Shown: piece by piece, positions 744-63,503 of the stretch
How positions within the stretch are numbered: position 1 is the first letter of the stretch
Layout of the letters: the number at the start of each line of letters is the position of its first letter
Source: Leuctra nigra
Lineage: Eukaryota > Arthropoda > Insecta > Plecoptera > Leuctridae
Reading direction: 5' to 3'
DNA length: 64,000 bases
Assembly (NCBI GenBank): GCA_934045905.1
Contig: OW203766.1
Location: forward strand, 28,390,309-28,454,308
The notes under the pieces: model-generated
What the model was told of the DNA's origin: nothing
The model's input: only the letters and a program-made list of their open reading frames with translations
The model's database searches: none
Position numbers and translations under genes: made by a program

Positions 744-3700
744 GACTCCGAGATACTTGTCTACCTCACCGCTGCCGTCATGGACTTCCGCCCTTATCCC
801 TCTGAGGTTCGTACATCTCTACCACTCGTTTGCTTGTAGAGAGACCACCCTCGCCCTCTATATGTTCTCCCTGGTGGGGATGCTGGCGTTCACCTGGGTG
901 CTGGCCTGCGACTCCGAGATCCTCGTCTACCTCACCGCTGCCGTCATGGGCTTCTGCCCTTCTCCCTCTCAGTTCCACTCGTTTGCTTGTAGAGAGACCA
1001 CCCTCGCCCTCTACATGTTCTCCCTGGTGGGGATGCTGGCGTTCACCTGGGTGCTGGCCTGCGACTCCGAGATCCTCGTCTACCTCACCGCTGCCGTCAT
1101 GGGCTTCCGCCCTTCTCCCTCTCAGTTCCACTCGTTTGCTTGTAGAGAGACGACCCTCGCCCTCTACATGTTCTCCCTGGTGGGGATGCTGGCGTTCACC
1201 TGGGTGCTGGCCTGCGACTCCGAGATCCTCGTCTACCTCACCGCTGCCGTCATGGGCTTCTGCCCTTCTCCCTCTCAGTTCCACTCGTTTGCTTGTAGAG
1301 AGACGACCCTCGCCCTCTACATGTTCTCCCTGGTGGGGATGCTGGCGTTCACCTGGGTGCTGGCCTGCGACTCCGAGATCCTCGTCTACCTCACCGCTGC
1401 CGTCATGGGCTTCTGCCCTTCTCCCTCTCAGTTCCACTCGTTTGCTTGTAGAGAGACCACCCTCGCCCTCTACATGTTCTCCCTGGTGGGGATGCTGGCG
1501 TTCACCTGGGTGCTGGCCTGCGACTCCGAGGTCCTCGTCTACCTCACCGCTGCCGTTATGGGCTTCCGCCCTTCTCCCTCTCAGTTCCACTCGTTTGCTT
1601 GTAGAGAGACCACCCTCGCCCTCTACATGTTCTCCCTGGTGGGGATGCTGGCGTTCACCTGGGTGCTGGCCTGCGACTCCGAGGTCCTCGTCTACCTCAC
1701 CGCTGCCGTTATGGGCTTCCGCCCTTCTCCCTCTCAGTTCCACTCGTTTGCTTGTAGAGAGACGACCCTCGCCCTCTACATGTTCTCCCTGGTGGGGATG
1801 CTGGCGTTCACCTGGGTGCTGGCCTGCGACTCCGAGATCCTCGTCTACCTCACCGCTGCCGTCATGGGCTTCTGCCCTTCTCCCTCTCAGTTCCACTCGT
1901 TTGCTTGTAGAGAGACCACCCTCGCCCTCTACATGTTCTCCCTGGTGGGGATGCTGGCGTTCACCTGGGTGCTGGCCTGCGACTCCGAGGTCCTCGTCTA
2001 CCTCACCGCTGCCGTTATGGGCTTCCGCCCTTCTCCCTCTCAGTTCCACTCGTTTGCTTGTAGAGAGACCACCCTCGCCCTCTACATGTTCTCCCTGGTG
2101 GGGATGCTGGCGTTCACCTGGGTGCTGGCCTGCGACTCCGAGGTCCTCGTCTACCTCACCGCTGCCGTTATGGGCTTCCGCCCTTCTCCCTCTCAGTTCC
2201 ACTCGTTTGCTTGTAGAGAGACGACCCTCGCCCTCTACATGTTCTCCCTGGTGGGGATGCTGGCGTTCACCTGGGTGCTGGCCTGCGACTCCGAGATCCT
2301 CGTCTACCTCACCGCTGCCGTCATGGGCTTCTGCCCTTCTCCCTCTCAGTTCCACTCGTTTGCTTGTAGAGAGACCACCCTCGCCCTCTACATGTTCTCC
2401 CTGGTGGGGATGCTGGCGTTCACCTGGGTGCTGGCCTGCGACTCCGAGATCCTCGTCTACCTCACCGCTGCCGTCATGGGCTTCTGCCCTTCTCCCTCTC
2501 AGTTCCACTCGTTTGCTTGTAGAGAGACCACCCTCGCCCTCTACATGTTCTCCCTGGTGGGGATGCTGGCGTTCACCTGGGTGCTGGCCTGCGACTCCGA
2601 GATCCTCGTCTACCTCACCGCTGCCGTCATGGGCTTCTGCCCTTCTCCCTCTCAGTTCCACTCGTTTGCTTGTAGAGAGACGACCCTCGCCCTCTACATG
2701 TTCTCCCTGGTGGGGATGCTGGCGTTCACCTGGGTGCTGGCCTGCGACTCCGAGATCCTCGTCTACCTCACCGCTGCCGTCATGGGCTTCTGCCCTTCTC
2801 CCTCTCAGTTCCACTCGTTTGCTTGTAGAGAGACCACCCTCGCCCTCTACATGTTCTCCCTGGTGGGGATGCTGGCGTTCACCTGGGTGCTGGCCTGCGA
2901 CTCCGAGATCCTCGTCTACCTCACCGCTGCCGTCATGGGCTTCTGCCCTTCTCCCTCTCAGTTCCACTCGTTTGCTTGTAGAGAGACCACCCTCGCCCTC
3001 TACATGTTCTCCCTGGTGGGGATGCTGGCGTTCACCTGGGTGCTGGCCTGCGACTCCGAGATCCTCGTCTACCTCACCGCTGCCGTCATGGGCTTCCGCC
3101 CTTCTCCCTCTCAGTTCCACTCGTTTGCTTGTAGAGAGACGACCCTCGCCCTCTACATGTTCTCCCTGGTGGGGATGCTGGCGTTCACCTGGGTGCTGGC
3201 CTGCGACTCCGAGATCCTCGTCTACCTCACCGCTGCCGTCATGGGCTTCTGCCCTTCTCCCTCTCAGTTCCACTCGTTTGCTTGTAGAGAGACCACCCTC
3301 GCCCTCTACATGTTCTCCCTGGTGGGGATGCTGGCGTTCACCTGGGTGCTGGCCTGCGACTCCGAGATCCTCGTCTACCTCACCGCTGCCGTCATGGGCT
3401 TCTGCCCTTCTCCCTCTCAGTTCCACTCGTTTGCTTGTAGAGAGACCACCCTCGCCCTCTACATGTTCTCCCTGGTGGGGATGCTGGCGTTCACCTGGGT
3501 GCTGGCCTGCGACTCCGAGATCCTCGTCTACCTCACCGCTGCCGTCATGGGCTTCTGCCCTTCTCCCTCTCAGTTCCACTCGTTTGCTTGTAGAGAGACG
3601 ACCCTCGCCCTCTACATGTTCTCCCTGGTGGGGATGCTGGCGTTCACCTGGGTGCTGGCCTGCGACTCCGAGATCCTCGTCTACCTCACCGCTGCCGTCA

Positions 3701-4014
3701 TGGGCTTCTGCCCTTCTCCCTCTCAGTTCCACTCGTTTGCTTGTAGAGAGACCACCCTCGCCCTCTACATGTTCTCCCTGGTGGGGATGCTGGCGTTCAC
3801 CTGGGTGCTGGCCTGCGACTCCGAGATCCTCGTCTACCTCACCGCTGCCGTCATGGGCTTCTGCCCTTCTCCCTCTCAGTTCCACTCGTTTGCTTGTAGA
3901 GAGACGACCCTCGCCCTCTACATGTTCTCCCTGGTGGGGATGCTGGCGTTCACCTGGGTGCTGGCCTGCGACTCCGAGATCCTCGTCTACCTCACCGCTG
4001 CCGTCATGGGCTTC
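744..4014 (+). repeat. 153-bp tandem array of a 3' splice site plus exon start, 21 acceptor copies
   Basis: The acceptor tetramer of TTGCTTGTAG recurs from 837 to 3897 at exactly 153-bp spacing: 20 intervals with no indels, 21 copies. Each unit joins about 38 bp of intron end (a pyrimidine tract, a CTCTCAG and then TTGCTTGTAG) to about 115 bp of exon start. It breaks at exon codons GFC and restarts in intron sequence CCTTCTCCC. The last unit runs into the complete exon at 3900-4116. 153 is a multiple of three, so the array is open in the transporter frame and also in one other + frame and one - frame. Only about four base positions vary between units (ACC/ACG, ATC/GTC, GTC/GTT, TGC/CGC). The first unit is partial and more diverged. 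An assembly collapse or expansion cannot be excluded from sequence alone. Confidence 0.95.
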
Positions 4015-4116
4015 TGCATGGGAGGATACGTCCCCGTCGGCTTCGAGCTCGCGATGGAGCTCACATATCCAGAACCAGAAGGAACGTCGACGGGCATCGT
4101 CATGTTCTTCTGTCAG
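3900..4116 (+). CDS. FLVCR-like MFS transporter (SLC49 family), penultimate exon
   Basis: This exon encodes the last third of a major-facilitator transporter. It begins ETTLALYMFSLVGMLAF (TM helix), then a second hydrophobic stretch ending GFCMGGYVPVGFELAMELTYP and the segment PEGTSTG. G-Y-x-P-V-G-F-E-x-x-x-E-L-T-Y-P-E followed by EGTS is the recognisable signature before the last helices of FLVCR1/FLVCR2. Family members export heme or import choline and ethanolamine across the plasma or organelle membrane; the insect substrate cannot be told from sequence. The exon starts after TTGCTTGTAG in phase 2 and ends CAG before gtaggc, so it joins the last exon in phase 0. Its first 115 bp form the repeating part of the upstream array. 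Upstream exons lie outside the window. Confidence 0.85.
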
Positions 4117-4185
4117 GTAGGCGGTTGAGATCTCCGAGTCGAATGGAATGAATTGCCAATAGCTGATTGTTGTATTCGCTTGCAG

Positions 4186-4350
4186 ATCATCTCGTTCTCC
4201 TTCCTGCTGTTGTACAGCCGACTGTTTGGAGAGATCGGCGATGTGTGGTCCAATATGGCGCTGTGTGGCACTCTCCTGGTCGGCGCGGTGATGACGGCGT
4301 TGATTCCTTCACACATGAGGCGTCAAGCAGCCACGAAGACCAAGACATAA
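4186..4350 (+). CDS. FLVCR-like MFS transporter (SLC49 family), last exon
   Basis: After a 69-bp intron (gtaggc...ttgcag) the frame continues with IISFSFLLLYSRLFGEIGD, a TM helix and loop. A final helix follows, MALCGTLLVGAVMTALI, then a short basic tail (HMRRQ...TKTKT) before TAA at 4348-4350. Placement, length and the RRQ-containing cytoplasmic tail match the C-terminus of FLVCR proteins. A possible ATTAAA poly(A) signal lies near 4429, but no strong AATAAA is close. Confidence 0.85.
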   Translation: MISFSFLLLYSRLFGEIGDVWSNMALCGTLLVGAVMTALIPSHMRRQAATKTKT

Positions 4351-8480: not shown

Positions 8481-8803
8481 TAAGAAGGAAACATAAGAGT
8501 ACAGTGGTGACGTTATCGCTACGCCAACGTGAAAATAAATTTCCGACAATTTGCTTGATATTATATCGCAAATATTGAACTGTCTTAATATGTTTTATAG
8601 ATGATATGAGTACCTACCTACCTATTGTTAGTTTTGAAAGGTTCAATAAGAATTTTTCGTAAAACCTTACTTATGAGTCAGTCTTTGTATTCAATAAAGT
8701 TGTTATATATATATCGAAAGCAGTGAAGTATCTTTGTCAACTGTACGTCTCTCGGTGGACTCGCAACTATTGGAACGAAATAACAAAAGTACAAGTAGGT
8801 ACA

Positions 8804-10085
8804 ATCCCAGAAAAAAACACTCCGTGTAAAAAAGGCAGCCAAGTCTCTTTACTTTAAAAAAATTCAACACCGAAAAGGAGTGATATCAAAAAAGGAGCCA
8901 AGTCAATGACATTTCCAAATATTTAATCGTATCTTTGAAATAAAAGTATAAACACCGAGAAATACTTTACAAAAGGACTTGGCGCATCGTTTTTTTAAAG
9001 ACATCATTCTATCCTAAAAGTGGAAAGAAATTTACAAGTAGGTACATTTTCCTCTTTCTATTAGAGCCAGAATCTATGAATCAAGCTACTTTTAGTAATG
9101 ACTATTTTATAGTTTTGTCAATGGCGATAGAAGCATGATTTTATGCTGTAATATATAAGTAATATAAGGGTGAAAGAATTACATAACAATTGGAAGTGGT
9201 GAGAATGTAGGTTTCTTTGGAAAACTTCCATGGAGTCAGGAGTCAGGATCCTCATCAGTGTGTTGTGTCTAATGTCCGCCCGTCCGATCGGGTAGCTCAG
9301 TTGGTAGAGCTCTCGCCCGGCAAGTGAGAGGTCCCAAGTTCGTGCCCCGGTTCGGTCGGATATTTTTCACAACACACATCCCTTCATATCAATTGGAAGT
9401 GGGCTCATACATATTCTTGCAGTACTGTTAATATGGCGATATTAGACTGGTATCTTTTCATAATTTGATCTTGACTGAAGGAAATCATGAAACGTTGTCA
9501 AATAATTACTAACTAATGGAACACAATTATATATTTTTGAAGTGTCAAGTGTATAAAGTTAAATTTTTTAATAGAAATTCAATATGACTGTCTTCTTTGT
9601 GAAATGTATTTTTATAAAATGTGTATTAATAGAAATTGTTACATGATGAGAAGGTATAACGCATGAGACTTAATTATATTCACCACGAAACAATATTACG
9701 AAGATTACTATTGTGTATATTTATAGAAAGCATAGACAACAAGTTTCATAGCGTATATATTCATATAGAAAATATTTTACAGAAGGTATGTATAATATGT
9801 ACCTAATTGAAAGATGTTTCCCTATTATTCTAAACATTCAAAATGACGGTTGTATATAAATGGCACATGCTTATGAATAGAAAAATGTCTTTAAAAAAAC
9901 GATGCGCCAAGTCCTTTTGTAAAGTATTTCTCGGTGTTTATACTTTTATTTCAAAGATACGATTAAATATTTGGAAATGTCATTGACTTGGCTCCTTTTT
10001 TGATATCACTCCTTTTCGGTGTTGAATTTTTTTAAAGTAAAGAGACTTGGCTGCCTTTTTTACACGGAGTGTTTTTTTCTGGGAT
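8804..10085. mobile_element. 1.28-kb non-autonomous element with identical 201-bp terminal inverted repeats
   Basis: The arm at 8804-9004 (starting ATCCCAGAAAAAAACACTCC) is reproduced as an exact reverse complement at 9885-10085; by eye I see no mismatch over 201 bp. The arms carry GCCAAGTC-type motifs three times. The interior has no transposase ORF and contains a tRNA-like SINE fragment at about 9285-9361. No long target-site duplication is evident; an AT dinucleotide at both ends may be either part of the inverted repeat or a 2-bp duplication. Arm identity implies recent insertion or gene conversion. The superfamily is not assigned. Confidence 0.85.
9285..9361 (+). repeat. tRNA-Ala-like SINE head inside the long-TIR element
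   Basis: GGGTAGCTCAGTTGGTAGAG is a good polymerase III A box and GGTTCGGTCGGA lies at the acceptor end. The anticodon stem-loop would present GGC (Ala), but base 33 is C instead of U and the T arm pairs poorly. This is a SINE or pseudo-tRNA rather than a working tRNA gene. Related sequence occurs, in opposite orientations, at 44378-44695. Confidence 0.6.
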
Positions 10086-10744: not shown

Positions 10745-11940
10745 ACGCTAGCGCCAAAGTGGCCGATCCCGTCGTCCTAGCTTGGCATCGCCCCATTGGT
10801 CCAGCCGTTTTCGATATATGACGTCACTTCCGGTTTTAGCAATGGCGGCCGAAAATAATGTCGTCTTGAATTCATAATTATTACTCCTACACATTTCCAA
10901 AATTTGGTTGCAATCGGTACAGCCGTTTTTGATATATGACGTCACTTCCGGTTTTAACAATGGCGGCCGAAAATAATGTCGTCTTGAATTCATAATTATT
11001 AGTACAACACATTTCCAAAATTTGGTTGCAATCGGTACAGCCATTTTCGATATATGACGTCACTTCCGGTTTTAACAATGGCGGCCGAAAATAATGTCGT
11101 CTTGAATTCATAATTATTAGTACAACACATTTCCAAAATTTGATTGCAATCGGTACAGCCATTTTCGATATTTGACGTCACTTCCGGTTTTAACAATGGC
11201 GGCCGAAAATAATGTCGTCTTGAATTCATAATTATTAGTCCAACACATTTCCAAACTTAGGTTGCAATCGGTACAACCGTTTACGATATATGACGTCACT
11301 TCCGGTTTTAAAAATGGCCGCCGAGAACACTGCAACCTTGAATTTATAATTATTTACAAAGTACGTTTACTTATATCTATTTTAAAGTATAAAGTGGTGA
11401 ATTTAGCGTCATTTAGCATATTTATGACGTCATTTCCGGTATAGGTCATAAAATGTGTGACGTCATTTCCGGTTTCGATATTTGAATCATCAAATATTAC
11501 TGATTACATAAAGTTGACCGTCTAAATCGTTTAGCGCTGGTTTTGTTCTAATCTGTTTAGCCGTTTTTGAGACATGATGTCACTTCCGGTTTCAAAATGG
11601 CGGCTTCCGGTTGGTTTTATAACAAGTCAAATGAAATATCAAAAGTACAAACGTTACATAAATATCAAGACAATCGGATCAACAGTTGTTGCTGAAATGC
11701 AAATCGATGTATATTAAATTTCATGACGTCATTTCCGGTTTATTTAAAATAATGTTCAGTCTTTTGATATTGATAATCCATATAGATGACCGTCTGAAAC
11801 GATTGGCGCAAATTTCGTTCCGATCGGTCCAACCGTTGACGAGATATGACGTCACTTCCGGTTTCAAAATGGCGGCACAAAAAATTCATGGGGACAAGGT
11901 TAAATCAGACGCCAAAAGTGCACACGTGGTAAAAATGTGA
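10745..11940 (-). repeat. 118-bp tandem repeat plus degenerate copies with a TGACGTCACTTCCGG core
   Basis: The core TGACGTCACTTCCGGTTTT recurs at exactly 118-bp spacing (ACGTC at 10821, 10939, 11057, 11175 and 11293). Each unit also has AATGGCGGCCGAAAATAATG and a GAATTCATAATTATTA segment. Degenerate copies of the core (TGACGTCATTTCCGG and variants) continue near 11425, 11458, 11574, 11724 and 11846, giving about ten cores in 1.2 kb. The overlapping - strand frames of 60-98 aa across it are by-products of the repeat, not genes. Confidence 0.9.
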
Positions 11941-21128: not shown

Positions 21129-24988
<3,860 letters not shown>

Positions 24989-34774: not shown

Positions 34775-35031
34775 ACTGTGGGATTTGAACCCACGTCCCT
34801 GAATTGCCGGTTAGAGCACTGAACCGTCATTTCAGGGACGTGGGTTCGAATCCCACAGTACCCTTCGTCCTAGAACCCGTCATTTTTCACACAATTCATA
34901 ATTATCACATCAAAGTATACACTATAAAATTTATTATACCAACAGCAAATTGTAAAAGATTCGAACCCACGTCCCTGAATTTCCGGTTAGAGCACTGGAC
35001 TGATAATACAGGGTCGTGGGTTTGAATCCCA
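34775..35031. repeat. Three head-to-head tRNA-half repeats (SINE-derived palindromes)
   Basis: 34775-34859 is a palindrome with 29-bp arms built from a tRNA 3' half: GTGGGATTTGAACCCACGTC on the left and GACGTGGGTTCGAATCCCAC on the right. A second inverted pair lies at 34958-35031; its right half (GGTTAGAGCACTGGACTGAT and then GTGGGTTTGAATCCCA) resembles tRNA-Ile with anticodon GAT. After it comes AATCTTTCCAGTTTGTAGTTG plus a GGTATTTT tail, which is shared with the SINE at 43120. Not functional tRNA genes. Confidence 0.65.
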
Positions 35032-40370: not shown

Positions 40371-40423
40371 ATTATGCTAGATGCAGTTTGTGCTCACAGA
40401 ATATCTTTCCTGTTGCTCCGCAG

Positions 40424-41341
40424 GTTTCATATCGGCGTCGCTGACGATGGATCGCAACTCTCCGACAGACGACGAGTCGGCTCTGATCCAACGCGTTCAA
40501 CAGCAGTCGAAACTCATCAACCGCAAGACGGAGGACCCGGGCCGCAAGCGTCGCAAGTTCCGTCGCCTCCATCGCGAACGCAACCCCGCCAACGCCTCCC
40601 AGAGCTTCAACAACGACGAGTACGAGGACGAGTACAACAAGAGGATCAGATCCTTCGCGTCCGCCATCAAGGACACAGACACTTTCCTCAAGTTCTTGAA
40701 ACAGGAGGAGACGAAGCATTTGGGGAATTACGTAAGACGGAGAGATTTTAATTTTAATAATCGGACTCTGACGACGAGGTTTCTGCAAACGCCGCCTCCG
40801 GAGCGTAACGATTTAGACGCTCCGAAAGAGTTTGAAGCTGTGACGAAAGAGCCTGAACTCATCACGGCAGCTCCTACAGCGTTATCACATACAATCATCA
40901 ATCACACAGGTGAAGCGTTGTTCTTCCTTCTCCCAAAACCATCTCCTCTCCTCTCACCTCCATATTATTCAGAAAAACCTCAAAAAAGCTCCCGAACTGA
41001 GAAAAAGCTCGACTTCCCGGTCCATTTCCTAACACCCGGCGACGAACCCAACCTCCGTGTACCGAACCGTGGCCTAGTACCTCCATTTCCTTCCTCTCAC
41101 GACAACTTGATCGCGACGCCGACGCCCACCGTCGCGCGCGTCAACGTGACGGAGTCGATAGAGCGTCGGGCGCCGCTGCCCGTCAAGAAGAAGGCGTCGA
41201 AACCGAAGAACAAGATGCCGGACAGGTACCTGAGGAAGCCGGATGACGACTATGATGAGTTGCAACTGTCGGTAGCGGAAACGGCGTATTACAGAAAGAG
41301 GCCACTGACAACGTCGAGGTTGAGGATGGCGAAACAGTACG
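40424..41341 (+). CDS. CPAP1-type cuticular protein, exon 2 (basic linker region)
   Basis: 918-bp exon from ttgctccgcag to TACG before gtaaga; enters and leaves in phase 1. It completes the signal peptide (CFISASLTMD) and encodes a long hydrophilic region: acidic/polar start, basic GRKRRKFRRLHRERN, acidic NNDEYEDEYNKR, then proline- and threonine-rich linker with several N-glycosylation sequons, and a basic end (KKKASKPKNK). Such low-complexity linkers are usual in CPAP1 proteins in front of the chitin-binding domain. The plain open frame continues to a stop at 41370, but the good donor and phase match to exon 3 argue that splicing is used. A 63-bp in-frame intron-like segment lies at 40910-40972. 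Confidence 0.85.
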
Positions 41342-42159
41342 GTAAGAGATCGACGGATTATGATTGTTAAACGCTGTTATTTCGTTGATGTTCAGTTTGT
41401 TAATTACAAATGAGATGATTTAATGGCTTATTACAAATTCCTCGCTCGAAACCATTCACATGAGCGTCATTGAAAATTATTATGATAATTTGGCAGCAAG
41501 TAAAATATTTGATTACTTTCTCGCCTGTGACATTGTGAACGTGTTGAAACATAAAATATAGTTAATTGACACAAAATTACGAGTCTGTAACAACAATTCG
41601 AAAACGATGGTATTTATTTAGATCATTATTTGCTAGCAGTCTGCAGCATTCCTCACTGGATTTATTGTCCAATTTTGCTTATAAATATGTTAGTATGATG
41701 CATCGTAGTGCAATAAACAACCCAGTAAAATCATTTCACATCAAATCATTTGAATAATTTAAACCTCTGTGGAAGGCGAAAATAATTAAAAATTACATAG
41801 TACACATTTCGAAACAAGAATGTTTGTGAGGGCGAAGAAAATCCGCAAAGATGGCTACTGACACTGGAAAAATTATGCTGCTTTACGTCTTTGAAGTTGT
41901 AAAAAGTCTATAAAGTCATATTCTCAACCAACGGGTTTACCTTATTTTTAAGTTCACTTTCGACACCTTCAAAGCTGTAAAAAATGCATAATTGTCCTAT
42001 TAAATGGAGGCTTTTGTGTGGATTAAAAATTCTTTTAAAGGGATGTTCACATAGAGCTGTTTACGTTTTGCGTTTAGCGTACCACTACTCAAGACATTTC
42101 CAAAGTTTTAATATCCCATCTCTGAATGTGTCCGTGTATTGTTTTGATCTCGCTCCCAG
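41342..42159 (+). other. CPAP1 intron 2
   Basis: 818-bp phase-1 intron with gtaaga donor and cgctcccag acceptor. AT-rich; no other feature seen. Confidence 0.75.
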
Positions 42160-42287: not shown

Positions 42288-43532
42288 GTCAGTTCTATAC
42301 ATTCCCCTGCCTTTCTCATGTTATTGTGCCGACAACGAGACAACAACTTGCAGCTTTGACCAGCGGCACCAAACTTGGTTGGTGCTGTTTAATAATTTGG
42401 GGACTTGGCAGATCAGTGGTGCTTTTATAACGTCGATGGCCCTTGAATCGTGGAACTTTTATGTTGACATGAAAAGAGCTTTGCTTTATGACCTTTGAAT
42501 TGAGATATAAGCTCATTTAAGATGTTATTTGAGAGTTTATACATTCATAAAAAAGTATTTTTGGGTTCCAGAAATATTTGGAATAAACTCTAGGATTGCT
42601 ATAAATACAAATTATCCATTAAATATTAATTGTGAAGATAAAACTATGCAATACTATAAAATGCTTATTAAATTTCTGAAACATCTGTTTTGGTTGAATT
42701 TCATACGCTGGATGTGTTTTAAAAAGATTCAGAACAATTACTTTTAAGTTTTTCAAAAAATACGATTGAAGATTTTATTTTCTAGTTCTCGAAAATTGAT
42801 TGTTCATAATCAGAATTATTACTTCATCCGATAAAAGCTATTGACCCTCGGAATGATGAGATGGCTGCAATTCATTCTCGCTTTTGGAGGTGATGAGAAG
42901 ATACATTAAGTGGCACGTGATAATAAACGAGCATAATATTTTGCATGCAAGTTATTATGAGGTGTACTTTTCATGATTAGGTGTGGGGGGTAAATATTGT
43001 ATAGCAGCTGGAAAGACAAAGATTTTAAATAGATCAGGATGAGATTCCTCGATACAATGACAAATATTTCAAGGTACCTATAAGCTTGATATCCCAATTA
43101 ACTACATCTAAGTTCATGATCAATTTTGATGAAACAAATAATGGACTTAATAAATACCAACTGCAATGTGAAAAGATTTTCCTCGAGTGGGACTCGAACC
43201 CACGACCTTCCGATATCCAGTCAGATGCTCTACCAGCTGAGCTATCGAGGTAGTTCACAGTGCAGCGGCTTTGTTCCAATATAACTGTTCCAACATCACT
43301 GTTGTCAATTAAGATAGCTTTTCAAAATTTGAACTTGATGGGACACACGATTCGTTCACACTCTTCAACCAATATGTTCAAAATTATTAGATCCACGATT
43401 GTCAAATTTGAGCTCCAGCAGAAAAGTCCTGCACAGCACGAACTACCGATAAAGAAATAGAGAACAGAGCCATTGTGGCAGAATGAGAGCTATTATATTG
43501 TTGTTTTCAAGTACTATTTGTCCATCATCCAG
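42288..43532 (+). other. CPAP1 intron 3
   Basis: 1.25-kb phase-0 intron, gtcagt to catcatccag. Contains an antisense tRNA-like SINE at about 43120-43251. Confidence 0.75.
43120..43251 (-). mobile_element. tRNA-like SINE with a well-formed cloverleaf, anticodon GGA
   Basis: 43251-43180 (minus) folds as a 72-nt class I tRNA: D stem GCTC/GAGC, anticodon stem TCTGA/TCGGA with loop CTGGATA, T stem GTGGG/CCCAC, acceptor stem 6 of 7 pairs. The body resembles eukaryotic tRNA-Tyr (CGATAGCTCAGCTGGTAGAG), but the anticodon would be GGA (Ser) without the long variable arm that tRNA-Ser needs, and base 37 is U. A tail AATCTTTTCACATTGCAGTT plus GGTATTTATTAAG follows, as in the copy near 35040 and a tail-like piece near 47925. 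So this is a SINE, although a tRNA finder might call it. Confidence 0.7.
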
Positions 43533-48550: not shown

Positions 48551-48729
48551 TGTCATGAGAATGTAGGGGCTGGTGAAGAGCACGAGATACCCCGTCATGT
48601 GTATCATGGACACTCCTTGGCCTCTGACCTCCGTGGGTATCAGCTCAGCGGCGTACTGGACACCGGAGTTGTAGGCCACGTTGATGCCGAGGCGGCCGAG
48701 GAACGAGAGGGTGATCACAGCCACAGGCG
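48551..48729 (-). CDS. ORCT-A, exon 6 (TM10-TM11)
   Basis: Between tgtcttag and ATGACA before gtgagt. Encodes APVAVITLSFLGRLGINVAY, GVQYAAELIPTEVRGQGVS and a helix ending TSPYILMT. The Y-x-x-E-L-x-P-T-x-x-R segment after TM10 is a core SLC22/MFS signature. It enters in phase 1, accepting the single G left by either copy of exon 5, and leaves in phase 0. Confidence 0.9.
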
Positions 48730-48929
48730 CTAAGACATTGGGGAACAACATCATTGGCTTCCACATGTCTTACAGTTTATTAAACGACTTTAAATATTTA
48801 CATCACAATTTTTTAAAGGTTGCTATCAGCTAATACACTGGAGTATTTCCATGAGAGAATTTCCATCGGAATTGCCACTCTGCCACCCTCTTTAACTCCG
48901 CACCTTTGCCACACTCTGCCGCTACCAAC

Positions 48930-49052
48930 CTGTGCCACCCTCTGTCGCCAGCACCACGGCAGCAACTATCATGCAGACTCCTGTGAACGCCAGAGAGGAG
49001 CTCGCCATCGCCTTCCTCCCGATGCGGTCCTGGAGGAGCAGAATGATGCCAC
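48930..49052 (-). CDS. ORCT-A, second copy of the exon 5 3' end (KAMA-containing)
   Basis: Repeats exon 5 from its ATCATTCTGCTCC segment through the donor ACAG before gttggt, 140 bp downstream of the first donor. This copy encodes GIILLLQDRIGRKAMASSSL; the upstream copy lacks the 12 bases for KAMA. RIGRKAMA is the family-like form, so this copy may be closer to the ancestor. Reading straight through from copy one hits TAG (GDTGW then stop), so this copy needs its own acceptor (a cggcag lies just upstream) to be used, and would then lack the preceding helix. It may be an alternative half exon or just a duplication relic. Confidence 0.6.
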
Positions 49053-49069
49053 ACTCTGCCGCTACCAAC

Positions 49070-49287
49070 CTGTGTCACCCTCTGTCGCCAGCACCACGGC
49101 AGCAACTATCATGCAGACTCCTGTGAACGCCAGAGAGGAGCTCCTCCCGATGCGGTCCTGGAGGAGCAGAATGATACCACACCCTGGCAGAGTGACCACA
49201 GATGTGATGCTGAACACGATGAAGCTGTTGTAACCCAGACCACTCACGTTGCGCGAGATGGCGTCGTAGCAAAGCGTCAACACGATT
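49070..49287 (-). CDS. ORCT-A, exon 5 (TM7-TM9)
   Basis: 218-bp exon from tctctctag to ACAG before gttggt. Encodes IVLTLCYDAISRNVSGLGYN, SFIVFSITSVVTLPGC, GIILLLQDRIGRSSS and a helix FTGVCMIVAAVVLATEG. It enters in phase 2 and leaves in phase 1, fitting exons 4 and 6. The tandem copy of its 3' part is listed separately. Relative to that copy it lacks four residues (KAMA) at the cytoplasmic loop R-I-G-R, where a basic residue is normal for the MFS family. Confidence 0.85.
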
Positions 49288-49405: not shown

Positions 49406-49506
49406 GATTTGAAGATGAGAATGCAGGTCTTTCGTCGCAGTCTCGGTGTCCTGAAGAGGCCCAGAAGATTCGGAGATCTGGTCTTAACTACAGCCTCCGC
49501 CGATCT
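49406..49506 (-). CDS. ORCT-A, exon 4 (central cytoplasmic loop)
   Basis: 101-bp exon from gttttcatcag to AAATC before gtgagt: phase 0 in, phase 2 out. Encodes RSAEAVVKTRSPNLLGLFRT and PRLRRKTCILIFK, the end of the large intracellular loop between TM6 and TM7, where LL-x-L-F-R-T-P-x-L-R-x-x-T is typical of SLC22. Not visible as an ATG-initiated frame, but its phases chain exactly. Confidence 0.85.
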
Positions 49507-49778: not shown

Positions 49779-50077
49779 CTTGAACTGATCTACTAGATCA
49801 GGATCCAGCTTCCTTCCATTGAACGCCGCCACCCTCTGAAAGCAGCGTATCGCCTCAGCAGTCCTGCCCTTGCTGAGCAGCCAGCGCGCGCTCTCTGGCA
49901 CCAGCACGTAGAACAGCGGCACAGCGAGCAAGGGTAGGGTGGTGATGAACAGCAGACGCCGCCAGGTCCCCAGAGCCAGCGAGATCCACGGCAGAGCGGT
50001 GGACCCCACCGTGTAGAACACCCCGATAGTCAGGTTCAGCCCGAGAGTGCGCTTGCTGGGACGCAGGTATTCCAACA
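49779..50077 (-). CDS. ORCT-A, exon 3 (TM5-TM6), real acceptor of the 77-bp array
   Basis: 299-bp exon from tgtcctgcag to TTCAAG before gtgggt: phase 1 in, phase 0 out. Encodes VLEYLRPSKRTLGLNLTIGV, helix FYTVGSTALPWISLAL, WRRLLFITTLPLLAVPLFYV, and the SLC22 signature LVPESARWLLSKGR followed by the loop. Its acceptor and first 52 bases are the unit of the tandem array immediately upstream (50024-52310). Only this proximal copy leads into the complete exon. Confidence 0.9.
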
Positions 50078-52310
50078 CTGCAGGACACAACAGACACATA
50101 GGATAGTCAGGTTAAGCCCGAGAGTGCGCTTGCTGGGACGCAGGTATTCCAACACTGCAGTACACAACAGACACATAGGATAGTCAGGTTCAGCCCGAGG
50201 GTGCGCTTGCTGGGACGCAGGTATTCCAACACTGCAGGACACAACAGACACATAGGATAGTCAGGTTCAGGCCGAGAGTGCGCTTGCTGGGACGCAGGTA
50301 TTCCAACACTGCAGGACACAACAGACACATAGGATAGTCAGGTTCAGGCCGAGAGTGCGCTTGCTGGGACGCAGGTATTCCAACACTGCAGGACACAACA
50401 GACACATAGGATAGTCAGGTTCAGCCCGAGAGTGCGCTTGCTGGGACGCAGGTATTCCAACACTGCAGGACACAACAGACACATAGGATAGTCAGTTTCA
50501 GCCCGAGAGTGCGCTTGCTGGGACGCAGGTATTCCAACACTGCAGTACACAACAGACACATATGATAGTCAGGTTCAGCCCGAGAGTGCGCTTGCTGGGA
50601 CGCAGGTATTCCAACACTGCAGGACACAACAGACACATAGGATAGTCAGGTTCAGGCCGTTCCAACACTGCATGACACAAAAGACACATAGGATAGTCAG
50701 GTTCAGCCCGAGAGTGCGCTTGCTGGGACGCAGGTATTCCAACACTGCAGGACACAACAGACACATAGGATAGTCAGGTTCAGCCCGAGAGTGCGCTTGT
50801 TGGGACGCAGGTATTCCAACACTGCAGTACACAACAGACACATAGGATAGTCAGGTTCAGCCCGAGAGTGCGCTTGCTGGGACGCAGGTATTCCAACACT
50901 GCAGGACACAACAGACACATAGGATAGTCAGGTTCAGCCCGAGAGTGCGCTTGCTGGGACGCAGGTATTCCAACACTGCAGTACACAACAGACACAAAGG
51001 ATAGTCAGGTTCAGCCCGAGAGTGCGCTTGCTGGGACGCAGGTATTCCAACACTGCAGGACACAACAGACACATAGGATAGTCAGGTTCAGCCCGAGAGT
51101 GCGCTTGCTGGGACGCAGGTATTCCAACACTGCAGGACACAACAGACACATAGGATAGTCAGGTTCAGGCCGAGAGTGCGCTTGCTGGGACGCAGGTATT
51201 CCAACACTGCAGGACACAACAGACACATAGGATAGTCAGGTTCAGCCCGAGAGTGCGCTTGCTGGGACGCAGGTATTCCAACACTGCAGGACACAACAGA
51301 CACATAGGATAGTCAGGTTAAGCCCGAGAGTGCGCTTGCTGGGACGCAGGTATTCCAACACTGCAGTACACAACAGACACATAGGATAGTCAGGTTCAGC
51401 CCGAGAGTGCGCTTGCTGGGACGCAGGTATTCCAACACTGCAGGACACAACAGACACATAGGATAGTCAGGTTCAGCCCGAGAGTACGCTTGCTGGGACG
51501 CAGGTATTCCAACACTGCAGGACACAACAGACACATAGGATAGTCAGGTTCAGCCCGAGAGTGCGCTTGCTGGGACGCAGGTATTCCAACACTGCAGGAC
51601 ACAACAGACACATAGGATAGTCAGGTTCAGCCCGAGAGTGCGCTTGCTGGGACGCAGGTATTCCAACACTGTATGACACAACAGACACATAGGATAGTCA
51701 GGTTCAGCCCGAGAGTGCGCTTGCTGGGACGCAGGTATTCCAACACTGCAGGACACAACAGACACATAGGATAGTCAGGTTCAGCCCGAGAGTGCGCTTG
51801 CTGGGACGCAGGTATTCCAACACTGCAGGACACAACAGACACATAGGATAGTCAGGTTCAGCCCGAGAGTGCGCTTGCTGGGACGCAGGTATTCCAACAC
51901 TGCAGAACACAACAGACACATAGGATAGTCAGGTTCAGCCCGAGAGTGCGCTTGCTGGGACGCAGATATTCCAACACTGCAGTACACAACAGACACATAG
52001 GATAGTCAGGTTCAGCCCGAGAGTGCGCTTGCTGGGACGCAGGTATTCCAACACTGCAGGACACAACAGACACATAGGATAGTCAGGTTCAGCCCGAGAG
52101 TGCGCTTGCTGGGACGCAGGTATTCCAACACTGCAGGACACAACAGACACATAGGATAGTCAGGTGCAGCCCGAGAGTGCGCTTGCTGGGATGCAGGTAT
52201 TCCAACACTGCAGGACCCAACAGACACATAGGATACTCAGGTTCAGCCCGAGAGTGCGCTTGCTGGGACGCAGGTATTCCAACACTGCAGGACACAACAG
52301 ACATATAGGA
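50024..52310 (-). repeat. 77-bp tandem array of a 3' splice site plus exon start, about 30 copies
   Basis: The acceptor TGTCCTGCAG and following TGTTGGAATACCTGCGTCCC recur from 50080 to 52287: 28 steps of 77 bp and one of 51 bp (the shortened unit near 50641-50690), hence 30 acceptor copies. Each unit is about 25 bp of intron (CTATGTGTCTGTTGTGTCCTGCAG type) and 52 bp of exon 3 start. Variation is a handful of substitutions (GGACAC/GTACAC, CAGCCC/CAGGCC). Because 77 is not a multiple of three, entering at any upstream copy shifts the frame and meets a stop in the second unit; the row of 71-aa frames is just that artefact. Confidence 0.95.
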
Positions 52311-53043
52311 TGTGATTCGATGTGTGGCTAATACAGACTGCAACCTGATTTTTCAATTACTAAATTGTTTATATATAAATTCATATTACAAAAACGACAC
52401 AAGAAAATGATTAGGTAGGTATCTAATCATGATGTATAATAGACATCGGCTTCCGAATAACTTCACAGTAAATTAACAATGGGTTTAGTAAAAGGACGCT
52501 TAATTATAATGTACATAATATGATTCCGACTCATTTAAATATTAAATTTTAAATTTTAATATTAAATATAATAGCAGAAATTGGTTGGATAACCTATTAT
52601 ATTTGTCGTGCCTTTGTTCAGTAATATTTTTCTTCATGGTTACCGTTTGAAATTATCTCGTAGTTTTTTTACAAAATGTCACATGAAGTTCAACGATCCT
52701 GATATCTAGGTATTTATGTTATTCAAAAACCTTAGGTAATAACTGAATCAGTTATTCAAGTAAGGGCATCAGTCCACAAAGTTACGAAATCAACTTTGGT
52801 GTGGAAATCGCATTATTGAATATAGACGCACATATTCAGAAGAAAGGGCATCAGTCCGTAACCTATACGGAATGGAAACAAATAAGCTAACTTTATGTCT
52901 TTAAAAAAGTCTTTGAAACCTTCGCTATTCTACATGTAATCATTTAATGCATCTATCAAAACCAACATTTTCTTAGTGCCTACACAAATCGAAACGGTTT
53001 ATTTTCAGAGCTTTCAGAGCTTTCAGAGCTTTTCAGAACTTAC
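52311..53043 (-). other. ORCT-A intron 2, upstream unique part
   Basis: AT-rich intron sequence between the exon 2 donor and the 77-bp array. Directly beside the donor is a short repeat of GAGCTTTCA (about 53006-53036, + strand sense). Confidence 0.7.
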
Positions 53044-53302
53044 CAATAATGTAGAGCATGTAGAAGTTGTTGTCTGTGGCCATGCCGGCGACAAAGCGGC
53101 AAACCACAAACTCCTAGACCCCAGTGGCGTAGCTCGAGGTGACGTTGCCGACGAAAGCCAAGAGGTTGGCGATTACGAGGACGTGGAGGCGGCCGATGTG
53201 GTCGGCGAGGATGCCGAGGAGGAGGGTCCCGATGACGCATCCCACGAAGAAGAGAGACAGACCCAGAGGTGCTTGCCATTGGTCGTCGCAAACCCAGTTC
53301 AT
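53044..53302 (-). CDS. ORCT-A, exon 2 (TM2-TM4), with an in-frame TAG
   Basis: 259-bp exon from acactatag to ATTATTG before gtaagt; phase 0 in, phase 1 out. Encodes MNWVCDDQWQAPLG, helix 2 and the SLC22 loop GILADHIGR, helix 3 (HVLVIANLLAFVG), then SSYATGV, stop, EFVVCRFVAGMATDNNFYML. The stop at 53116-53114 (deduced codon 192) is a single TAG; both sides are in the same frame and family-like. Relatives often have an aromatic residue just before this F-x-x-C-R-F helix, so TGG (Trp) to TAG is the simplest event. Possibilities: a null allele, a sequencing error, stop read-through, or A-to-I editing restoring Trp. Confidence 0.85.
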
Positions 53303-53391: not shown

Positions 53392-53778
53392 CTCCGAGAC
53401 GATGCTGTCATACCCCCACACCCGGTCATACTCCCACCCTTCGTCACACCTCCTCAACCCCCACGTCTCTCGTCCCAACGGCGTCGTCATGCCCGTCATG
53501 TTTACGTCGTACCGATAACAGAGTCGCTGTTTGGCGTCCCTCGGCGTCCACTGCTCTCTGACGACGTCGTCAGCGAGAGAGAGGTTCAGGTCTGGGAGGC
53601 GACACCAGTGATCGGGGACGTCTCCGATGAAGATGGTGTTGAAGTAATGGATCGACGAGAGGATGTTGAGGGCGGAGAAGAGGACCAAGAGGAGGATCTG
53701 GTAGCGGCTGAAGTCGCCGGCGTGGGCGAGCATGGAGTCCACGGTCAATTTCTGACTGGAGTCTGGCAGAGGAGTCAC
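53392..53778 (-). CDS. ORCT-A, SLC22-type organic cation transporter, exon 1 (N-terminus)
   Basis: First recognisable coding exon, ending TCGGAG before gtaaga, phase 0. Encodes KLTVDSMLAHAGDFSRYQ, helix 1 (ILLLVLFSALNILSSIHYF), and the large extracellular loop with Cys59, Cys87, Cys111 and sequons NLS (65) and NMT (93), ending WEYDRVWGYDSIVSE. This is the standard SLC22 start. The family moves organic cations, carnitine or zwitterions across the plasma membrane. The start is uncertain: ATG 53778 gives 15 extra codons in front of KLTVD, but ctctgccag just inside could be an acceptor (exon from 53762) with an earlier start exon. The seven exons chain in phase to 555 aa, the usual SLC22 length with 12 helices. 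Confidence 0.85.
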
Positions 53779-54965
53779 GAAGATTAGTGCAAGTCCCCAG
53801 TAAATTACATTTTGTGGCTCGTTGACGGGTCAGATTTCTCGACTTATTTTTGAAAGTGAGTGATTGAAAGATATCTCCGGATATCTATTATCTCTCTAGC
53901 AAGTTATAAAAACGTCTCACTTGAAACTAGCTATGGCTCAAAGTCTGTCCCATCGAGACTTTATAAAACGAACATTTTGAGGAACACAATCATCTTCTCG
54001 ACAATTTTGTGTACTTGAAATCAAATAATGTAACATGTTTCTTTTTGTTGTATAACCCTCTTGGTATGTAGGTATACTCTTTAAAGCAGTTCTACTGAAT
54101 TTAGTTATAGAATTACATTTATTACAGTACGTAGAATTTGCAACGTTGTAATTGTAACAACAAATGTTTTGTCTTTATACTTAATAACTACCAATTAATA
54201 TTTACTAATACTAGGAAAACGCTCAGTGTAACGCGTTGATGAGCGAGCACGGGTACGTGCAAATTCTGGAACCGGAAATGCGTACACAACGCACAGAAAA
54301 CATATACAACCATATTGAATTGATTATGATCAGTGCTCGAAGTAGGAATTAAATAGTGGCGGTATGGTAACATAAGAATACCACGTGAGGGGGGGGTACG
54401 ATATTAGATGAGGGTCCAGATTCCAGAATTACACTGACAACCATTGTCATGTCATTAGTTAGATTAGTCTTTTACCTTGATGAAACAACTAAATTAAATA
54501 ATGCATTTTACTTTATCTTGTAGTGGATGTTCATAGTTCATAGTTATGCTTGAAATATGCAGTCAAAAGATAACCATGAAATACGAGTAAATTAGAATAT
54601 AAAATTACGTTAATGTCCAAGAATATCTGATTTTAAGTATTCCGTTTTTCTGAGAAGTAACAATATGAAATCAAATGTGTAAAGAAGAACCGGTATACCA
54701 TACCGTCCCATACCGGCCCACTTCGAGCACTGATTATGATATCAACTTAAAAGTAGGTATATGCTTTTCATCGAAACTTTAAAATAGCATCTAAGCACCT
54801 GGTTCATAAAGCAAATCAGAATCAATTCAATTGGCACTGGAAAACATTCATTTCGATACTTCATTACTGACAGATATTAAAAATGTCAATAAGTTCAAAC
54901 GTTCTTAACTGATTGAGATGAAATTTTGTAAAATAAGAGACAATATTGGTCTTAATGATCATGCA
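53779..54965. other. 5' flank of ORCT-A
   Basis: AT-rich. It may hold the promoter or a short upstream exon, but I see no clear core promoter. A dispersed repeat head (GGAAAACGCTCAGTGTAACG, GCGTTGATGAGCGAGCA) is at about 54212-54310 and a G8 run at about 54389. Confidence 0.4.
54212..54310 (+). repeat. Dispersed repeat family copy, head segment
   Basis: CTAGGAAAACGCTCAGTGTA, ACGCGTTGATGAGCGAGCAC and CGCACAGAAAACATATAC recur almost unchanged at 55908-56060 and, more diverged, at 56950-57110. Same family as 8150 and 30862. Confidence 0.65.
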
Positions 54966-55535
54966 AAATATGAGTTTGATCAGAATTATCGAAGACCGTT
55001 TTCATTTTTCAGCCTATCAGGAGATATTTATTTAATTTTTAACCAATGAATGGATTTCAAAAAAAAATATGGTGTGCAAACAGAGAAGGTTGGTTTTACA
55101 TGTGTGCAAAATTTCAGCTCGATCAAAGAAAAACTCTGAGCTGTATAGCCAAAATATGATTTTGATCAGATTTATCGAAGACCAGTTTCATTTTTCAACC
55201 TACCATCAGGAGATGTTTATTTAAATTTTAGCCAATTGATAAATTTCAAAAAAATTTGGGGTCTGCAAACAGAAAAGTTTGTCTCTACATGTGTGCAAAA
55301 TTTCAGCTCGATCGAGGAAAAACTCTAGACATGTACAGCCAAAATATGAGTTTGATCAGATTTGTCGAAGACCATTTTCACTTTTCAACCTATCAGGAGA
55401 TGTTTATTTAAATTTTAACCAATCAGTAGATTTCAAAAAAATTAGGGTCTGCAACGCCCAGAGAATGTCCAAACACGTGTGCAAAATTTCAGCTCGATCG
55501 AAGAAAAACTCTGACCTGTATATCGTCAGTAACAG

Positions 55536-55572: not shown

Positions 55573-55573
<1 letters not shown>

Positions 55574-58879: not shown

Positions 58880-59017
58880 CTATTTCAGCAGCTTGACGTC
58901 TTCTATGGTCTCTGGTAGTTTGAGGCCTCTTGTTTCTGGATAGAGCAACGTCAGCAAGCTGGCGACTAAAGCGACGGCTCCGAACAGGAATAACGGTAAC
59001 GACGTGTTGTAATATCC
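58880..59017 (-). CDS. ORCT-B, SLC22-type transporter, last exon
   Basis: 138-bp phase-0 exon after gcatgttacag, encoding GYYNTSLPLFLFGAVALVAS, LLTLLYPETRG, LKLPETIEDVKLLK and TAG at 58882-58880. It supplies helix 12 and the P-E-T-x-G...L-P-E-T-I-E-D signature ending insect Orct proteins. The correct frame has no ATG, so it does not stand out as an ORF. Ends much shorter than ORCT-A. Confidence 0.9.
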   Translation of the reverse strand, partial: GYYNTSLPLFLFGAVALVASLLTLLYPETRGLKLPETIEDVKLLK

Positions 59018-60776: not shown

Positions 60777-60958
60777 CAACAAGGGCGCAAATGGCGCCAG
60801 AATCGCTCCAATGCGAGCAATTGTTGAACTGGCGCCAACTGCGGCGCTTCGCATCACTGTGGGATACATCTCGGCGGTGTACACGTACAGGGTCCCGAAG
60901 GAAGAAGTGATTCCCAGTTTACCGATCAGGAAGAGCAGCGTCTCAGCCCACAACATCC
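60777..60958 (-). CDS. ORCT-B, exon with TM9-TM11
   Basis: 182-bp exon from tttcccacag to TTGTTG before gtacga; phase 1 in, phase 0 out. Encodes GMLWAETLLFLIGKLGITSS, FGTLYVYTAEMYPTVMRSAA and VGASSTIARIGAILAPF. Y-x-x-E-x-Y-P-T-x-x-R-S is the defining MFS/SLC22 signature after helix 10. Confidence 0.9.
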
Positions 60959-61286
60959 CTGTGGGAAATGAAAGATTAATGAGAAGCGCTGTTTATACAT
61001 TCTTATTCTTAAAATAGAATAATAAATACTTAGAAATGAAAAAAATATTCATCACAAATATCACAAAGAATTGTAATTTGACATATAAAAATAATTTTAA
61101 TATATACCCACATCTGCCACCATTTGTAAAATGGCTTGTAAAATATACCTACGCGCAGGGAGGGTTTCTATTAAAGCCACCACCTTTCTTATCATGAAAT
61201 ATGATATTATTGTCACAATAGGTTAATGTTGATTTCTATGTGAAAATATGTTGTAGCTTTCCTCAACCATCTATTTTGGAACACTA

Positions 61287-61530
61287 ATAGGCCATTTAAG
61301 AAAGTCAAAGCGCATGCGATAAAGCCTGACAGGTCCACAGCCGTCTAGTGTGTAGTGACTAGTTCTGTTTAGTGTCTGTCATATAAATACGTGTTGTTTT
61401 CGAGAAGGCTGTGGGTGGGATGACGTCACGCCAGTCCTTTGAAGTGCGCACTGCGCATGCGTTTAAGCCTGATAACATTAGTACCACACCTCACCAACAT
61501 CACTCATCTTTACTTTCTTAAATGGCCTAT
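61287..61530. mobile_element. MITE with TA duplication
   Basis: ATAGGCCATTTAAGAAAGT at the left end pairs with ACTTTCTTAAATGGCCTAT at the right; TA flanks both ends. The interior has GCGCATGCG on both sides and a TGACGTCA. Non-coding. Confidence 0.8.
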
Positions 61531-61563
61531 TAGTCAACCATAAATATATCCAACAGCTGCCAC

Positions 61564-61994
61564 CAATAGGGAATTCTCCTCTAATTTTATTAAGGTAAAT
61601 TCGTATAAAACAACACAAATAATAATCACAAACATTCTTATCACTTGAGAAATAGAACATTTTCATTCATAAAAATCAATTTCAAATGTCATGGAACATT
61701 TTGGCGGGAAAAACGGCATGTAATGAGAATCTGGGTTGTGATGTCATTTCTAAGTCCACAACAATGTGTTACCATGGTGATATGCTTTGTTGCCATGGCA
61801 ACATCTGAGTTATGACATCAATATCAATTTTCCTGTTTTAAAGTTAGAAGAAAAATATCAAACTTTGTAAATCAATTCCGAGAGAACTATTGAACCCACA
61901 ACAAAATTAATAACATATCTGTATTCAGCAACGTCTCCCCTACCATAATAATACAATTATTTGGAAATTTAATTTAGAGGAGAATTCCCTATTG
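61564..61994. mobile_element. MITE with 21-24 bp inverted ends
   Basis: CAATAGGGAATTCTCCTCTA at 61564 is matched by TAGAGGAGAATTCCCTATTG ending at 61994. The interior has GTTACCATGGTGAT and GTTGCCATGGCAAC, themselves palindromic. No clear target duplication, non-coding. Confidence 0.8.
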
Positions 61995-62122
61995 TACAAT
62001 TTCTGTTCAAATGTAACTGTGCTCAGGAAGGTTTTGTATGAGTCAATTATTCGACTTCAATAATTGTAGAATATAATGTTGAATATAAAAGGTAGCAGAT
62101 GTTATATTGACGGTAACTCTAC

Positions 62123-62337
62123 CTTTAGGCACCATGGCAGCACCGACACAAGTGACAGCACAGAGAAGAAGAGATCCGAACAGCGACTTCTTCCTACCGA
62201 ACCTCTTCAACGTGAACCACGAGAGGGTGTAGCCGGGGATCTCGATGAGACAGACGAGGGCGAAGTTCAAGTACTTGTCGCCGCCGAGGTTGGTGGAGTT
62301 CACCGACAACCCGTAGTAGACGAACGCGTTGGCGGCC
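62123..62337 (-). CDS. ORCT-B, exon with TM7-TM8
   Basis: 215-bp exon from cgacctctag to AAAG before gtagag; phase 2 in, phase 1 out. Encodes AANAFVYYGLSVNSTNLGGD, KYLNFALVCLIEIPGYTLSW, FTLKRFGRKKSLFG and helix LLLCAVTCVGAAMVPKG. YYGLS-x-N-S-x-N-L-x-G-[DN]-x-Y-L-N-F and E-I-P-G-Y are classic insect Orct/carnitine transporter sequence. Its acceptor sits beside a GGA-rich minisatellite. Confidence 0.92.
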
Positions 62338-62340
62338 CTA

Positions 62341-62705
62341 GAGGTCGAGGAGGTGTTAGTTGACGAACACTACAAGAGTGTGACAGGGTTCTGTTCAGGA
62401 GGAGTAGGAGGGGGAGGGGGGGGGAGGAGGTCGAGAAGGTGTTAGTTGACGAGCACTACAAGAGTGTGACAGTGTTCTGTTCAGGAGGAGGAGGACGGAG
62501 AGGGGGAGGAGGTGTTAGATGACGAGCACTACAAGAGTGTGACAGGGTTCTGTTCAAGAGGAGGAGGACGGGGAGGTGTTGGTTGACGAGCACTACAAGA
62601 GTGTCACCATGGTTCTGTTCAGGAGGAGGAGGAGGAGGGGGAGGGGGAGGAGGAGGAGGAGGAGGAGGAGGAGGAGGAGGAGGAGGAGGAGTTGTTAGTT
62701 GACGA
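62341..62705 (-). repeat. Pyrimidine-rich minisatellite at an ORCT-B 3' splice site, five copies
   Basis: Five copies of GGTGTTAGTTGACGAGCACT plus ACAAGAGTGTGACAGGGTTC (+ strand), at spacings of about 86, 73, 64 and 116 bp, separated by GGA/GGG runs that expand to a long (GGA)n at 62621-62690. In the gene's sense the runs are (TCC)n, and the array begins only about four bases upstream of the acceptor of the 62123-62337 exon. It has multiplied the polypyrimidine-tract region of this intron. Confidence 0.9.
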
Positions 62706-62961
62706 GTACTACAAGAGAGTATGACAGGGTTCTCGATGTAAAACAAGGGAATGTGAGGTTGAGGAAGTACACTAAAGATTTCAGCGACAGTAATGATCAT
62801 AGATCATTTGTAAAAAATAAAGTTTGTGTACATACTATTGTTTTTTTTTATCGCCATTTTGAATATATTCTGTATCAAATATGATGTCTTAAATAATTGA
62901 AAAAGTTGATTTTACTTCAACTTTAGCATTCGCTTTACACATTCTGATTTGATTTATCTAC
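62706..62961 (-). other. ORCT-B intron remainder
   Basis: AT-rich intron between the minisatellite and the donor of the 62962-63234 exon. Confidence 0.7.
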
Positions 62962-63234
62962 CAATTAAAGAACAAGTTGAGCGAACGCAGACAGAGTTTC
63001 CTCGACTTGATGATCATCATGATGCTCTCCCCCATGCCTCGCATGTGTTTCTCATCAGACTCGTCGACGTTCTGCTTCCCATGCTTCGTCTTCTCGACGT
63101 CGCCGTCGTCGAACATCGACAGCAACCTCTCAGAGAGGACGACATGGTTCCTCTTGGCAGCTTTTCGGACGACCTGATGAGCTTTGTGGGTCTTCTGCTT
63201 AGCGAGCAGCCATCGTACTGACTCCGGAATCAAC
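62962..63234 (-). CDS. ORCT-B, exon with the TM6-TM7 cytoplasmic loop
   Basis: 273-bp exon from attttcctacctag to AATTG before gtagat; phase 2 in, phase 2 out. Encodes LIPESVRWLLAKQKTHKAHQ, KAAKRNHVVLSERLLS, a charged loop (DDGDVEKTKHGKQNVDESDE) and RKLCLRSLNLFFNW. PES-x-RWLL is the SLC22 signature after helix 6. Its acceptor and first part are the unit of the 132-bp array just upstream. Confidence 0.9.
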
Positions 63235-63503
63235 CTAGGTAGGAAAATAGAGAGTTACAATCATCACCCTCTTGACGTGGTCCTCTTGGCAGCTTGTTGG
63301 AAGACTAGACAAGCTTCGTGGGTCTGGCGATTGGCGAGCAGCCATCGTACTGACTCCGGAATCAACCTAGGGAGGAAGATAGAGAGTTACAATCATCACC
63401 CTCTTGACGTGGTCCTCATAGCAGCTTTTTGGACGATTTGACGAACTTTGTGGGTCTTCTGCTTAGCGAGCAGCCATCGTACTGACTCCGGAATCAACCT
63501 AGC
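63158..63503 (-). repeat. Three 132-bp copies of a 3' splice site plus exon start
   Basis: The acceptor CTAG plus GTTGATTCCGGAGTCAGTAC recurs with exon starts at 63498, 63366 and 63234, exactly 132 bp apart. Each copy encodes LIPESVRWLLA, then a variable basic stretch, then a TGA in the intron-derived part. Although 132 is in frame, reading through an upstream copy terminates (GGG TGA TGA), so only the 63234 acceptor is productive. Upstream copies have drifted (KTHKVRQIVQKAA against KTHKAHQVVRKAA). Confidence 0.9.

Follow-up and report, generated by a model that had tools for sequence, protein, structure and literature searches.

Tandemly multiplied splice junctions of the mirage type in three transporter genes of the insect Leuctra nigra

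Introduction

In lancelets, tandem copies of intron–exon boundaries, termed 'mirages', have been described in Adh3, in the globin genes BflGb6 and BflGb9 and in PGBD5, and the same architecture has been reported for troponin C (PMC3087553, PMC3902484). The lancelet units are 10–72, 60, 108 and 150–160 bp long and contain either acceptors or donors; length differences between haplotypes were described, and for the globin mirages normal splicing was found by reverse transcription PCR (PMC3087553, PMC3902484). Mirages were proposed by the authors of PMC3087553 as a source of new introns. Here we describe four tandem arrays, each lying across one exon–intron junction, in three genes for transporters, of which one is FLVCR-like and the other two are SLC22-like, within 64,000 nt of DNA from Leuctra nigra (Plecoptera, Leuctridae; assembly GCA_934045905.1, contig OW203766.1, positions 28,390,309 to 28,454,308 of the forward strand). 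This whole stretch is called the window in the following, and all coordinates are positions within it; it is one assembled sequence, and the copy numbers given rest on that one assembly.

The arrays share with the lancelet mirages the minisatellite-like copies of a boundary, the single authentic unit that stays with the exon and the many copies that carry AG or GT (PMC3087553, PMC3902484). They differ in copy number, which reaches 21 and 30 in the two largest arrays compared with 3 and 6 for the two haplotypes of BflGb6 and at most 7 for PGBD5 in drafts of the lancelet. Introns gained by tandem duplication are a further relative: in a potato gene an intron was gained via a duplicated intron–exon segment (PMC4974935), and some novel intron positions in Drosophila involve duplicated coding sequence with a proto-splice site (PMC2891723). 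There, too, a tandem duplication carries splice signals, but it became a new intron, whereas our arrays consist of many copies and their sequence gives no sign that any of them turned into a separate exon or intron (PMC4974935, PMC2891723). The host here is an insect instead of a lancelet. NAGNAG acceptors are spaced by 3 nt. They likewise place several acceptors before one exon, but they are not built of whole junction units (PMC2891723). Among the papers listed in a literature search, which were mostly judged by title and opening of the abstract and included few subscription papers, lancelet cases only and none from insects were recognised. As far as this search showed, the arrays are thus mirages, a known kind of structure, in a new lineage and with higher copy numbers.

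Results

Four arrays copy an exon–intron junction

The window contains animal DNA, and four genes with homology support were modelled in it. Gene A, on the + strand, comprises the 3' end of a transporter that is FLVCR-like as judged by homology to FLVCR proteins, and genes B and C are SLC22-like organic cation transporters by homology to SLC22 proteins, both on the - strand. The fourth is an mGluR1-like receptor, with three exons within the window on the - strand. We observed the following arrays in the three transporter genes:

744..4017, + strand: A1, 153-bp unit composed of 36 nt of intron end and 117 nt of exon start, gene A; 21 acceptors with exon starts 840–3900
50025..52311, - strand: A2, 77-bp unit composed of 27 nt of intron end and 50 nt of exon start, gene B exon c; 30 acceptors
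63141..63513, - strand: A3, acceptor array of gene C exon b with a 132-bp unit; three copies with exon starts at 63498, 63366 and 63234
48907..49186, - strand: A4, 140/128-bp unit present twice, spanning the gene B exon e donor
62341..~62733, - strand: A5, intronic units with a spacing of 64–86 bp, beginning 3 nt away from exon c of gene C; adjoins the acceptor without crossing it

The junction copies in A1 to A4 number 21, 30, 3 and 2 for units of 153, 77, 132 and 140 bp, with A1, A2 and A3 being acceptor arrays and A4 a donor array. An earlier reading of the letters of this DNA (the original prediction) had named exactly these four, three at acceptors and one at a donor, and all of them are present; A5 had been missed. 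The spacing in A1 is constant at 153 bp, and an additional partial copy starts at 744. In A2 the exon starts run from 52284 down to 50077 and comprise 29 full units and one of 51 bp (at 50667). A4 is absent from the Tandem Repeats Finder listing. Our junction survey covered 16 exons with 32 exon ends, two of which are stop codons and several approximate; local tandem copies run across four of the 32 ends and adjoin one more.

Each unit of A1 to A4 holds an intron end together with the exon edge across a junction defined by homology, which A5 does not. In A5 a CTAAC motif was found in four of the five units, followed by a pyrimidine (CT-rich) tract and AGs, so that intronic acceptor-like signals have themselves been multiplied there. 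In each of A1 to A4 one authentic unit is still joined to the rest of its exon, the one in A4 being short by 12 nt; the original prediction of an intact junction on a complete exon therefore has to be restricted for A4. The AG is kept in all 54 acceptor copies (21/21 in A1, all TAG; 30/30 in A2; 3/3 in A3). The same 36 intron bases precede 20 of the 21 acceptors in A1, and the same 27 precede 19 of the 30 in A2. We do not take the retained AGs to indicate selection, since few changes would be expected at 2 of 77 positions with the approximately 1% divergence of A2.

Exon limits were fixed via homology to FLVCR and SLC22 proteins; they are approximate for the receptor exons and, at its 5' end, for gene B exon a. 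The transporter exons are:

3900..4116, + strand: gene A, complete exon joined to the last A1 copy; aligns with FLVCR1/2 from ETT; donor CAG/GTAGGC
4186..4350, + strand: gene A, last exon and stop, FLVCR homology
53392..53790, - strand: gene B exon a
53044..53302, - strand: gene B exon b, with one in-frame stop
49779..50077, - strand: gene B exon c, joined to the last A2 copy, SLC22 homology
49406..49506, - strand: gene B exon d
49079..49287, - strand: gene B exon e, 12-nt loss relative to the downstream copy, SLC22 homology
48551..48729, - strand: gene B exon f, SLC22 homology
63705..63873, - strand: gene C exon a, SLC22 homology
62962..63234, - strand: gene C exon b, joined to the last A3 copy, SLC22 homology
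62123..62337, - strand: gene C exon c, SLC22 homology
60777..60958, - strand: gene C exon d, SLC22 homology
58883..59017, - strand: gene C exon e, up to the stop codon, SLC22 homology

Searching positions 1–743 with five long FLVCR relatives revealed no earlier exons of gene A; these lie outside the window or have diverged too far. When aligned with their best matches among solved FLVCR and SLC22 proteins (one alignment each), the gene models are covered without any repeat blocks, and the homology-based models would not require an extra intron or exon. FLVCR relatives do match A1 copies (e.g. P0134 at 811–954) because the copies derive from one exon edge; the last A1 copy is all that the alignment over the complete exon and the final exon requires. 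We also considered A1 as a coding repeat. The frame 733–4125 is open, and with the whole protein Pfam reports KDM6_C-hel with 81 bits (cut-off 26.8) and DUF6404 with 24.8 bits (below the cut-off of 27.6). For neither of them does any single stretch pass alone; we read both matches as sums over repeats and not as domains, and this candidate was rejected.

Separate origins and copy history

The unit sequences of the arrays are unrelated to each other. When the two SLC22 gene models are compared, the acceptor carrying A2 has a counterpart without an array in gene C (exon a), as has the donor carrying A4 (gene C exon c), and A3 sits at an intron position that gene B does not have. Since the units are unrelated and the junctions are non-equivalent, separate origins of the arrays, as originally proposed, are supported by these comparisons.

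Within A1 the copies vary at few positions. A G at +6 is found in copies 7, 10, 13, 16 and 19, i.e. in every third copy, and in addition in copies 3, 4 and 21. From this three-unit recurrence it follows that blocks of three units have probably been multiplied, and the period is consistent with multi-unit exchange. The inner copies are near-identical; the first one differs from them upstream of -18. Three of the five variant exon sites of A1 (+6, +21 and +105) fall on third codon positions, as counted by eye in what is a very small sample. In A2 the variants -7A and +37C recur, and the copies at the edges are not clearly older. The two upstream copies of A3 match the exon-attached junction at 85–87%, and A3 therefore looks older. 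With regard to concerted evolution that acts within a cluster but leaves out its boundary, the pattern of A1 fits, and A3 and A4 have too few copies to judge.

Proposed origin of the arrays

We consider it likely that the arrays are minisatellites which started as local tandem duplications straddling one edge of short GC-rich exons, and that they are tolerated with the exon-attached junction being used. The seed would be a duplication between short similar stretches, one exonic and one in the neighbouring intron. Read by eye and without a null expectation, the duplication ends share ATC in A2, GTGTGG inside a 10-of-12 match in A4 and an ACCAYGTCG block beside a one-base gap in A3. Growth would then proceed by unequal exchange or slippage, in single-unit as well as multi-unit steps, with one junction remaining joined to the rest of the exon and the surplus junctions coming to lie in the intron. 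Duplications of exon interiors and of whole exons would presumably be removed by selection.

In exon definition, the two splice sites that flank an exon are recognised together as one unit. The surplus junctions would most likely be passed over in this manner, as recognition of the unit would pick the acceptor nearest to the downstream donor, or the donor nearest to the upstream acceptor, and this predicts use of the exon-attached copy in both types of array. Because near-identical copies hardly differ in strength, position must single out the right junction.

Position of the arrays compared with random placement

For the placement test we collapsed the arrays to one copy and placed the seven unit lengths at random. 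At least four of seven arrays crossing an exon edge were obtained with P = 0.0006, with about 0.5 expected, although this value flatters the finding, as the presence of the arrays was the reason for choosing the window. At least four arrays touching an exon gave P = 0.002. The GC content is 0.577 in exons and 0.376 elsewhere, and the units of A1 to A5 range from 0.50 to 0.61, with 0.40 and 0.32 for the other two arrays. When a GC content of at least 0.50 was required, P was approximately 0.015 for at least four of five arrays crossing an edge and 0.20 for touching an exon. GC content accounts for exon contact but not quite for all of the edge crossing, and the remaining excess is modest.

The excess, together with A5 adjoining a fifth edge, would be expected from a duplication process that favours exon edges, e.g. 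by breakage tied to the GC step between exon and intron, to nucleosomes or to transcription. However, given exon contact, four of four arrays crossing exactly one edge has P = 0.21, which is high because the exons are short relative to the units, and therefore no edge-favouring process is needed. The presumed selective removal of interior and whole-exon duplications and the choice of the window also speak against such a process, which we regard as unlikely; a position beyond chance is shown against random placement only, and no edge bias is demonstrated. Of the two options given in the original prediction, duplications arising anywhere and surviving where they keep one usable junction fit better than a process directed to exon edges.

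The original prediction also described two non-transporter genes as free of arrays. One of them is probably the mGluR1-like receptor, judging from its homology, and none of its six exon ends carries an array (P = 0.42); the other gene could not be identified. mGluR1-like receptors belong to a multi-pass membrane family. With 0 of 6 ends at this probability, a link of the arrays to transporters is unsupported.

Gene state and reading frames

Gene B exon b contains an in-frame stop at 53114–53116, and the splice sites predicted on either side of it are usable. Moreover, the exon-attached copy of A4 lacks 12 nt which the other copy keeps. When the longer version was compared with SLC22 relatives (best 120 of 237), 109 scored higher with it than with the shorter one, 7 lower and 4 equal. 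Due to the 12-nt loss exon e is not wholly intact. Decay of gene B is one possibility, an error in a single base another. Both lesions would be in line with arrays marking genes that are freed from selection, but gene C is open over its five modelled exons, as is gene A over the end that is visible, yet both genes carry arrays, and we consider decay an unlikely general explanation.

The consequences of using different copies are distinct. The frame of A2 is kept only from the exon-attached acceptor (1/30), with a premature stop from 29/30; A3 likewise keeps the frame from the exon-attached acceptor only (1/3) and runs into a premature stop from 2/3. A4 keeps the frame only from the exon-attached donor (1/2) and shows a premature stop from the other copy (1/2). 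In A1 all of the 21 acceptors are in frame to the normal stop, and each further copy adds 51 residues. The open frame of A1 follows from the 153-bp length and the stop-free intron part; it is one event that was copied and is not strong evidence of function.

These results bear on the proposal that the arrays are functional variable splicing elements, in which several junction copies are used and give rise to isoforms or to an expression dial that depends on copy number. The AG present in every acceptor copy and the frame-open A1 acceptors, which would add 51-residue blocks of membrane segments, are what such an element would show. However, every copy other than the exon-attached one leads to a premature stop in A2, A3 and A4, AG retention is expected anyway at the low divergence of A2, and the A1 frame is one event copied 21 times and not 21 events. 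We therefore find this proposal quite improbable, and still less probable the version in which the 21 FLVCR-like acceptors form a ladder of variable copy number inserting 51-residue membrane blocks, with many such expandable junctions genome-wide. The claim of a new kind of variable splicing element is not supported, as the architecture has already been named in lancelets, where it reportedly leaves splicing undisturbed (PMC3087553, PMC3902484), and three of the four arrays give premature stops from the other copies. An inflation of the arrays or their copy numbers by the assembly is very unlikely, for although one lancelet mirage appeared aberrantly assembled in a genome draft (PMC3087553), the units of the four arrays are unrelated, variants recur in three-unit order, the first copy of A1 is diverged, A2 contains a truncated unit of 51 nt and the A3 copies are only 85–87% alike.

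Discussion

Several observations weigh against the arrays being tolerated minisatellites with the exon-attached junction in use. Silence of the other A1 copies is not forced, all 21 acceptors being in frame. In gene B, the stop in exon b and the 12-nt loss mean that relaxed constraint, instead of insulation by the choice of splice site, may explain its two arrays, and the frame test for A2 was begun downstream of that stop. Matching for GC lowers the edge excess (from P = 0.0006 to approximately 0.015) without removing it. Finally, the short similarities flanking the duplications were judged by eye and without a null, and the intron-side end of A1 is lost.

The arrays provide natural ladders of near-identical splice sites before one exon and thereby a test of how the cell picks the right one. 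Ordinary RNA sequencing would show the winner in the native gene and would distinguish the first acceptor transcribed from the one nearest to the downstream donor. In A1, any use of further copies would show in stable messenger RNA. Our findings suggest that mirages are not confined to lancelets, which bears on the origin of new introns. If such arrays are common in this genome, minisatellites at exon edges would be a general and overlooked class of gene variation.

Other features of the window

Among the SLC22 matches listed (best 120 of 237), the nearest named proteins are from Gryllus, Anabrus and Cryptotermes. The best-ranked relatives of the FLVCR-like gene are from bees, followed by Bacillus rossius. 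For the receptor, a Periplaneta protein has the highest identity (90%), and a fish protein (74%) is first by score.

Two further arrays touch none of the 16 modelled exons. One of them, with a 118-bp unit, lies at 10798–11354; the region 10798–11876 contains 118-bp units and related copies with TGACGTCA(C/T)TTCCGGT motifs and may represent a satellite that originated from a mobile element. The other is AT-rich, consists of three 186-bp units (54964–55522) and lies upstream of the gene B exons that were modelled. An open reading frame of 329 codons on the + strand (40381–41370) has no match in Pfam, NCBIfam or PDB. At 34782–35031, a 74-nt stretch is present in two copies (86%) with tRNA-like ends, GATTTGAACCCACG and GGTTCGAATCCCA, and is possibly a short interspersed element. 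In addition, a tRNA-Ala (GGC) is predicted at 9285–9359 and a tRNA-Ser (GGA) at 43178–43252.

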